Shown in pieces: positions 17,699-37,457 of a stretch of 64,000 nucleotides of DNA. This DNA comes from Chitinophagaceae bacterium. Its GTDB lineage: Bacteria > Bacteroidota > Bacteroidia > Chitinophagales > Chitinophagaceae. Made by a program: the position numbers and the translations under genes. Below the pieces are notes generated by a model, which ran no database searches, was not told the origin of the DNA, and was given only the letters and a program-made list of their open reading frames with translations. The DNA lies in NCBI GenBank assembly GCA_026415715.1, contig JAOAGO010000002.1, positions 1-64,000 on the forward strand. The letters are read 5' to 3'. Numbering within the stretch: position 1 is the stretch's first letter; the number at the start of each line of letters is the position of its first letter.

Positions 17699-17773
17699 GG
17701 AACGTTAGCTCAGTTGGTTCAGAGCGCTGCTTTGACAGGGCAGAGGCCACTGGTTCGAGTCCAGTACGTTCCA
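17699..17773 (+). tRNA. tRNA-Val (anticodon GAC)
   Basis: A 75-nt cloverleaf folds well: acceptor GGAACGT/ACGTTCC, D arm GCTC/GAGC, anticodon stem CTGCT/GGCAG with loop TTGACAG (anticodon GAC, Val), 5-nt variable region AGGCC and T arm ACTGG/CCAGT with loop TTCGAGT. The discriminator is A. The 3' CCA is not encoded (ACAA follows), which fits the CCA-adding enzyme gene at 55.0 kb. It reads GUC and GUU codons. Confidence 0.95.
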
Positions 17774-28822: not shown

Positions 28823-29118
28823 AAGATTAGAGGTTATAGTGTAAATGATGAGGTGAAAAAAATTAAAATGGAAATTTACACAAGAAATTTTTAGGCTTAT
28901 AATTTTAATTTTATAATTAACGAAAAATATCTTTCTCATTTTATTTGAAATTTTTTACGACGATCCGGTTAATTACTCTACCCTTCAAAAATTTTTTCAA
29001 CATCAAGTTAAATGTGTTAGTAAAAAACCTGATCAGGCACAACACTATTTTTTATAAAAATCTTTCACGCCTACATTTTAATTGATTAAAATACTTTAAA
29101 AGATGAACAGAGTTTAAA
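28823..29118. other. AT-rich gap after aroQ
   Basis: About 300 bp of very AT-rich sequence without a gene. No hairpin with a T-run and no coding signal are seen. It leads into the GC-rich dispersed repeat. Confidence 0.4.
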
Positions 29119-29252
29119 AGCCGATGGGCTGCCCCGCCCGGAAGGCGAACGAAGTGAGGCCGGTCCGCCGCAGGCGGACCGGCCGAAGCGACAGCGTAGC
29201 CTGTAGGGTGGGGAACCGCAGGTGAACAGCGTATCAAACGACGACAGCCCCA
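29119..29252 (-). repeat. Dispersed GC-rich hairpin repeat, copy 1
   Basis: An island of GC-rich sequence in AT-rich noncoding DNA. Its core is a perfect inverted repeat, GGCCGGTCCGCC-GCA-GGCGGACCGGCC at 29158-29184 (12-bp stem, 3-nt loop), flanked by GGCGAACGAAGTGA and GAAGCGACAGCG arms. The whole block of about 130 bp recurs in reverse orientation at 36953-37092. It has no coding potential that is consistent between copies. It fits a REP/MITE-like noncoding element. I mark the minus strand so that both copies read in the same sense. Confidence 0.85.
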
Positions 29253-29352
29253 AAAAAATTTCTTCTTCACATCACCACCTATTCTTTAACTCTTTTTGCC
29301 GGTGATTTCGACAATTCCTAATTTTATTGCGACAACACTTCAATGCAATTTT

Positions 29353-36882: not shown

Positions 36883-36952
36883 AGGCAAAAATATTTTTCC
36901 GTTGCCTCAAAATGAAAACGGCAAAAAAATGAATTGAGAAATGGGTATCATT

Positions 36953-37092
36953 TGGGGCTGTCGGCACCCGATTCGTTGTTCAGCTACAGTTCGCCCCCCT
37001 TCAGGCTGCGCTGTCGCTTCGGCCGGTCCGCCGCAGGCGCACCGGCCTCACTTCGTTCGCCTTCCGGGCGGCGCAGCCATTCGCCGGCATCG
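36953..37092 (+). repeat. Dispersed GC-rich hairpin repeat, copy 2
   Basis: Reverse-complement partner of the block at 29119-29252. The core hairpin at 37021-37047 is GGCCGGTCCGCC-GCA-GGCGCACCGGCC, with one mismatch in the 12-bp stem. Flanking arms CGCTGTCGCTTC and TCACTTCGTTCGCCTTCCGGGCGG are shared with copy 1; the outer 40 bp (GGGGCTGTCG to CAGGCTG) align with changes. It lies in the 610-bp gap between the M1 peptidase and the TonB receptor. Confidence 0.85.
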
Positions 37093-37457
37093 CTTTATTC
37101 GGCAGGTAATTTTATAATGTTTTTTTAGTAAAAAACGAACCGATGAAAACAGAAAGAATCATAAATTGAAATAAACTGTTTATGATAATTACAGAGTTTT
37201 TGAATTAAAACATAAATTAGCTTTAATTGTGAAATGTTTCCAGAAACTCAGACTAAAATGCAGCACATAAGACAGGTAAGGATTTTTACGTTACAGCACA
37301 TAGAATGTTTAGAATTTATGTACTCAATGATGAATGCAAAAGCCAAACATTTTCTGTAATTATTTTTATTAACAAGTTTTAATCACTCATTCAAAAATTT
37401 AAATCAGTGAATCCGATGTTTCCATTTTGAAAAAATCTTAGCTTACTTTGTGCTATT
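37093..37457. other. AT-rich region upstream of the TonB receptor gene
   Basis: About 365 bp without a gene. TTACTTTGTG shortly before the ATG at 37458 is close to, but not an exact, -7 element. I see no other structure. Confidence 0.35.

Follow-up and report, generated by a model that had tools for sequence, protein, structure and literature searches.

A GC-rich structured dispersed repeat resembling the RNA motif Flavo-1 in a Chitinophagaceae genome

The closest described counterpart of the repeat analyzed here is the orphan RNA motif Flavo-1 (RF01705), which Rfam lists as a gene of type sRNA. Its entry in Weinberg et al. 2010 reads “RNA? y, cis-reg n” (PMC2864571), and the table of a review counts it among abundant sRNAs without giving a function (PMC9029176). 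In a transcriptome of F. psychrophilum, Flavo-1 matches lie sense or antisense alike, and many fall outside transcribed regions (PMC9723704). Among open-licence papers in PMC, judged by their titles and the starts of their abstracts, we found none that has the dispersal of Flavo-1 as its topic.

Small folded repeats offer a second frame of comparison. ERIC/IRU and Correia (NEMIS) elements are intergenic imperfect palindromes that take up inserts at fixed internal places, and Correia elements come with a TA duplication. REPs are 20-40 bp long with a GTAG or CGTC tag (PMC3733652), and from Porphyromonas gingivalis, a member of the same phylum as our source, a MITE with a minisatellite has been described (PMC4596501).

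The window pair, its family and its fold

Across the window, by which we mean the whole 64-kb stretch of DNA analyzed, there is one inverted pair of at least 40 bp, 29122-29254 and 36951-37083, each member 133 nt long, the two 84% complementary and 7,696 nt apart. This bears out the first-pass annotation, made from the sequence, in which a GC-rich block was said to recur here in opposite orientation. The perfect 12-bp stem claimed for copy 1 is likewise there, as the hairpin GGCCGGTCCGCC-GCA-GGCGGACCGGCC, and in copy 2 one mismatch interrupts its equivalent. For the core of copy 1 (29126-29251) the predicted folding energy is -71.3 kcal/mol with RNA parameters (z -6.0) and -34.9 kcal/mol with DNA parameters (z -3.9); in neither setting did any of 200 shuffles do as well. 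R2, a covariance model made from 23 copies with loop inserts removed, finds both copies (Table 1) and no other element in the window. Its limits show that the extent first given, 29119-29252, took in the core but missed some 20 nt on the left, where the edge is weakly conserved. Only a tRNA gene at 17699-17773 reaches an Rfam gathering score in the window.

Table 1. Positions of the two copies in the window and of the parts of copy 1
Feature	Position	Strand	Basis and remarks
Copy 1, full element	29100..29257	+	Covariance model R2, 136.2 bits, E 2.6e-29
Copy 2, full element	36948..37105	-	Covariance model R2, 122.3 bits, E 3.8e-26
Outer helix P1, 5' side (GGGCTG)	29126..29131	+	Predicted fold; partner 29245-29250; nearly invariant in the family
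Helix P2, 5' side (CCCCGCCC)	29132..29139	+	Predicted fold; P2 covaries
Helix P3, 5' side (AGGC)	29143..29146	+	Predicted fold
Central arm, perfect 12-bp stem and GCA loop	29158..29184	+	Sequence; arm exchanged for others in other copies
Helix P3, 3' side (GCCT)	29199..29202	+	Predicted fold
Helix P2, 3' side (GGGTGGGG, one G-T)	29206..29213	+	Predicted fold
Outer helix P1, 3' side (CAGCCC), right edge	29245..29250	+	Predicted fold; right-edge profile

The window block is one copy of a real, well-supported, GC-rich structured dispersed repeat. The first-pass annotation had made its repeat family depend on further copies in the genome, and these exist in number. With copy 1 as query, blastn returned 29 matches from the source genome (G000; 2,626,356 bases in 96 contigs, estimated completeness 100%), two of them palindromic self-hits, and none from 57 other genomes, 34 of which belong to the same genus. 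R2 found at least 70 matches in the source genome at E 0.01 or better, 63 of these 70 at 1e-7 or below. All but one of the 70 align end to end, the remaining one being truncated at a contig end, and their flanks are mostly unrelated, differing at the element edges. Outside the source, R2 matches occur one or two at a time in at least 8 of 41 other genomes of the genus and, with the source included, in at least 38 of 294 genomes of the family, five of which (G177, G399, G438, G480, G520) hold at least 10 matches each; these genome counts, like those for Flavo-1 below, are lower bounds, as genomes scored empty may carry weak matches. At the protease gene beside copy 1, the loci compared came from 12 relatives (at least two, L227 and L230, beginning at a contig end with little upstream DNA) and from eight MAGs possibly overlapping those genomes, and among them R2 matches in the source genome only. 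The aroQ-like neighbor of copy 1 is not adjacent to the protease in relatives, which leaves no empty site there to set beside the filled one.

The copies share a constant frame around an exchangeable arm. From the left, the order is an edge region that holds a GAT-rich stretch and GCCGAAGGGCTG, P1 (GGGCTG with CAGCCC), an 8-bp P2 and a short P3; after the arm come the 3' side of P2, another GAT-rich stretch and, as the right edge, GATGACAGCCCC, beyond which the DNA is A-rich. The arm varies by subgroup, being the 12-bp GC arm in the window copies, a GTGC..GCAC arm in another subgroup, and still others elsewhere, and in eight copies (L015, L018, L021, L022, L024, L025, L026, L028) it holds inserts of 64-78 nt that are mostly AT-rich. 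The inserts of L022 and L024 look related, as do those of L025, L026 and L028. The GAT-rich stretches of the left and right edges are similar to each other (GCYGATNAGYG.. in the alignment A1) and give the folded core flanks that resemble a degenerate direct repeat. We dropped a hammerhead-like reading of GATGAG..CGAA because only parts of it are constant.

Covariation was counted in two alignments. L007 (contig end) and the self-hits L023 and L027 had been removed beforehand, and A1 uses 23 of 26 copies, with L008, L011 and L019 omitted. In A1, double changes, in which both partners are altered, occur at 7 of 17 pairs and fill 28 cells, compared with 6.5 for shuffles (0 of 500 reach 28) and 0 to 4 for slid controls; further pair types, 12 against 12.2 in shuffles, show no excess. 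The 70-copy alignment A2 was fitted to R2 and is hence biased toward the model; it has double changes at 20 of 25 pairs and in 199 cells, where shuffles average 57.1 (0 of 500 reach 199). Related copies inflate such counts. One position of P2 occurs as C-G, G-C, U-A and A-U, and three pairs of P3 covary in all A1 cells that have letters. P1, being nearly invariant, shows little covariation, and since in addition its innermost pair is broken in 24 of 69 copies, it is supported by conservation more than by covariation. Among 17 closest-sister pairs, paired positions differ by 7.6% and the unpaired core by 18.8% (23.8% with the edges included). Changes at paired positions break a pair 34 times and keep it 12 times; hence constraint is clear, but fold repair within single copies is not.

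Relation to Flavo-1

Judged by sequence and predicted fold, the family looks like a divergent, GC-rich relative of Flavo-1. The window copies fall below the Rfam gathering score of 42 bits, and we therefore call them Flavo-1-like, not Flavo-1. At the locus of copy 1 (L001) and at L009, L022 and L028 the Flavo-1 model gives no match at E 0.5, and of the 18 loci tested in the source genome one, C46:9988-10109, matches weakly (29.6 bits, E 0.035). Among copies with an R2 match, RF01705 matches at the right place in 6 of 9 from the genus, the best at 41.6 bits, and at 2 of the 11 loci from the family; all of these intermediates score below the cut-off. When R2 was applied to 47 canonical Flavo-1 loci, there was no match at the Flavo-1 place at E 1 or better, so that the bridge between the two rests on the intermediates.

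Both have P2, a P3-like helix and a variable arm in the same order, similar copy numbers and, as set out below, the same polarity with respect to stop codons. Unlike Flavo-1, the present family has GC-rich stems and other inner loops and arms, and its constant outer helix P1 is absent from the Rfam model. An outer helix is seen by eye in some canonical matches, but as a set they give a mean stem of 4.96 against 4.72 in shuffles, with 12 of 200 as high. Canonical Flavo-1 occurs in at least 83 of 298 genomes of the order, the source genome not among them. Three genomes picked for richness (at least 15 matches in an earlier survey) hold at least 52, 71 and 143 copies, which makes Flavo-1 itself a high-copy dispersed repeat in those genomes. 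The present family is a case of a curated RNA model missing a derived lineage with about 70 copies in one genome. Weak matches to another Rfam family, Acido-Lenti-1, were noted in Chitinophagaceae loci (L263:500-545, L266:1814-1859 and L266:2000-2045, at 29.0, 25.1 and 22.0 bits against 37).

That the block might be a structured noncoding RNA, as the first reading also proposed, gains partial support from the covarying stems and from the frame common to Flavo-1-matching elements. In its full form this idea would make the copies a trans- or cis-acting structured RNA family, an sRNA by the Rfam typing, amplified by ordinary duplication. The covarying fold and the Rfam assignment agree with it, but we think it quite unlikely: some 70 divergent copies stand in a single genome, their neighbors follow no orientation rule (++ 20, -- 20, convergent 17, divergent 9 and four undefined among the 70), and the F. 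psychrophilum matches occur in sense and antisense alike and in many cases outside transcribed regions (PMC9723704).

Gene ends and modes of spread

By script-called ORFs, 69 of the 70 copies lie outside reading frames of 150 aa or more. The two ends of the element stand differently to the genes around them. Where a stop codon faces the right end, the median distance is 42 nt, and 30 of 38 are within 60 nt; where one faces the left end, the median is 182 nt from the P1 side, with 4 of 37 within 60 nt, or 10 of 37 after subtraction of the 26-nt edge (right vs left, Mann-Whitney p 1.8e-6). These distances exclude copies without a called neighbor ORF of 100 aa, and the contig-end copy at C25 was excluded here as well as from the edge-duplication and A-run analyses. 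Canonical Flavo-1 has the same polarity, with facing stops within 80 nt in 17 of 20 cases on the right (median 33.5 nt) and 6 of 24 on the left (Fisher p 8.7e-5), in a set of 47 loci of which 30 come from three genomes and four overlap a called ORF.

The polarity invites a functional reading, namely that the copies are 3'-UTR elements which, read on the reverse strand from the facing gene, fold at the end of the message and stop transcription or protect the RNA, with dispersal secondary. The nearness of the right edge to facing stop codons, in the present family and in canonical Flavo-1, and the low divergence of paired positions speak for it. Several observations run against it and lead us to regard it as unlikely. 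The right neighbor presents a facing stop codon in 38 of the 68 copies with a called neighbor, whereas in the other 30, which include both window copies, a gene begins on that side. A-runs, which would be U-tracts on the reverse strand, do not differ between stop-facing and other copies, and a search for terminator-like sites found none at copy 1 and one weak site inside copy 2. Wobble pairs, which could betray the transcribed strand, carry no such signal (4 vs 2 in A1; G-U 27 vs A-C 38 in A2). As an intrinsic terminator, the element finds no support in either the A-run comparison or the terminator-site search of the window copies.

The family is large and dispersed between genes, with a conserved fold, a stop-codon polarity and a link to Flavo-1 through intermediates, and we put at an even chance that it is a non-autonomous, structure-defined, GC-rich, Flavo-1-like dispersed repeat, REP/ERIC-like in behavior, that spreads via a folded single strand. 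The constant frame of P1, 8-bp P2, short P3 and conserved edges would carry the exchangeable arm; a process that recognizes the folded single strand would have scattered copies over intergenic DNA; and they would be targeted to, or retained at, places past the 3' ends of genes, often with the right edge toward the stop codon. Such an element would work as REP, ERIC or Correia-type elements do, as a small folded repeat of untranslated regions. That each copy moved as a whole, and that whatever enzyme or process moves it recognizes the fold, are inferences on our part.

A REP- or MITE-like family had been suggested at the outset, and its dispersal (70 matches), unrelated flanks and nearly exclusive intergenic position stand. 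A REP-associated tyrosine transposase and a target-site duplication of fixed length are not supported. The source genome gave 0 matches to the Y1/RAYT transposase (PF01797), for which the control was positive in 5 of 14 genomes, and no duplication of fixed length was found at the edges, where the mean longest shared word is 5.45 against 5.21 in shuffles (5 of 200 as high) and the best fixed 5-mer is shared by 4 of 69 copies. No mobilizing enzyme for the repeat was found. It could be held that the element is of REP type and was moved by a Y1 transposase since lost from the genome, and Y1 is indeed commoner in genomes with Flavo-1 (67 of 83 vs 130 of 215 others; odds ratio 2.7, p 0.001, uncorrected for relatedness). 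Besides the absence of Y1 from the source genome, however, 16 of the 83 Flavo-1 genomes are without it, including two (G131 and G309) with at least 15 Flavo-1 matches each, and REPs are shorter and simpler than this element, which makes this explanation most unlikely. Mobilization by RAYT/Y1 was rejected on the absence of Y1 from the source and its weak co-occurrence elsewhere.

The family shares with REP/BIME and its RAYT the character of a high-copy, folded, intergenic repeat near gene ends. The differences are its length and its genome without a Y1 protein. Read by eye, A1 and the edge profile show no constant end tag of the GTAG/CGTC type. Like MITEs it is short, non-coding and dispersed, but it has no fixed duplication, and no transposase element sharing its ends came to light as a possible parent; as for terminal inverted repeats of the MITE type, the ends share GGGCTG/CAGCCC only, off by one base at the edge. 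None of the 70 copies was seen to carry a gene, though gene-size inserts would escape R2. In build it resembles ERIC/IRU and Correia elements, with a commonest form of about 110-150 bp, an imperfect palindrome, intergenic position and inserts at fixed internal places; this likeness is one of general features, the phylum is another, and the TA duplication of Correia elements is absent.

Integron platforms beside six copies

Six copies (at C46, C54, C6, C49, C34 and C31, that at C34 truncated by the contig end) follow an integron-integrase-like gene, or a remnant of one, at a distance of some 60-80 nt. The gene at C46, which the contig start truncates, matches PF00589; its matches to the NCBIfam integron-integrase and XerA models are below the cut-offs. 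The remnants at C54, C6, C49 and C34 retain residues 1-31 and 335/338-363, which is practically one deletion, and by eye an attI-like core and cassette-like ORFs stand to the left of the remnants. Several integron-like platforms are thus present in the source genome (L010 at C54, L011 at C49, L012 at C6, L007 at C34 and L014 at C46), differing in their cassette-like ORFs, and among them the one intact-looking integrase gene is that at the contig start. For the duplicated platform unit the boundary is the repeat's right edge, just as it is for solo copies; this agreement suggests that a moved unit can terminate there.

The association raises the question of whether the repeat is a folded recombination site of the integron integrase, of a mechanism related to that of attC and spread by the genome's own integrase. 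The distance of the six copies and the shared internal deletion of the four remnants point that way. Like attC sites, the repeat is folded, variable in length and near integron platforms in the source genome. Cassette sites of this kind end in RYYYAAC/GTTRRRY cores; the present repeat ends in GGGCTG/CAGCCC, by eye no GTT cores stand at the element ends in the alignments, and most copies, unlike attC, are solo between chromosomal genes. By eye, too, the sites between cassettes of the source genome look different. Relatives' integrases tell against it as well. R2 matches at 0 of 68 integrase loci, some places being counted twice and R2 being a model that misses canonical Flavo-1; the Flavo-1 model gives one strong and one weak match at 33 such loci, 2 of which, with many others, lie at contig ends with incomplete flanks; and up to 420 bases downstream of 29 relatives' integrases, read by eye, hold no such repeat. 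Integrases do not co-occur with Flavo-1 either (34 of 83 Flavo-1 genomes vs 73 of 215 others, p 0.28). We consider such a site very unlikely and treat the integron link of the six copies as hitch-hiking, not as a general property. The Rfam loci, the R2 loci and the co-occurrence test were the grounds on which the repeat was rejected as an integron site.

Taken together, the high copy number of Flavo-1, the fold it shares with the GC-rich family and the polarity found in two data sets give a testable alternative, in which Flavo-1 is a dispersed repeat and its fold the substrate. A broader form of it is possible, though we hold it to be less probable than not: Flavo-1 may be the folded core of a large Bacteroidota superfamily of mobile repeats and not in essence a regulatory RNA, inserted by structure with fixed polarity just past stop codons by an enzyme that is neither Y1 nor the integron integrase, and its right edge could mark where a larger moved unit stops, an integron platform for example.

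Two further observations concern relatives' integrases. At one of the 33 integrase loci searched with the Flavo-1 model, in G087, a canonical Flavo-1 (L141:5682-5759) scores 62.1 bits and stands upstream of an integron-type integrase match, at a distance of 62 nt. At L150:4186-4219 and L153:4046-4085, beside relatives' integron-type integrases, there are sub-threshold matches to DUF805b (27.7 and 34.4 bits against 35.6), and these DUF805b-like spots are possibly cassette recombination sites.
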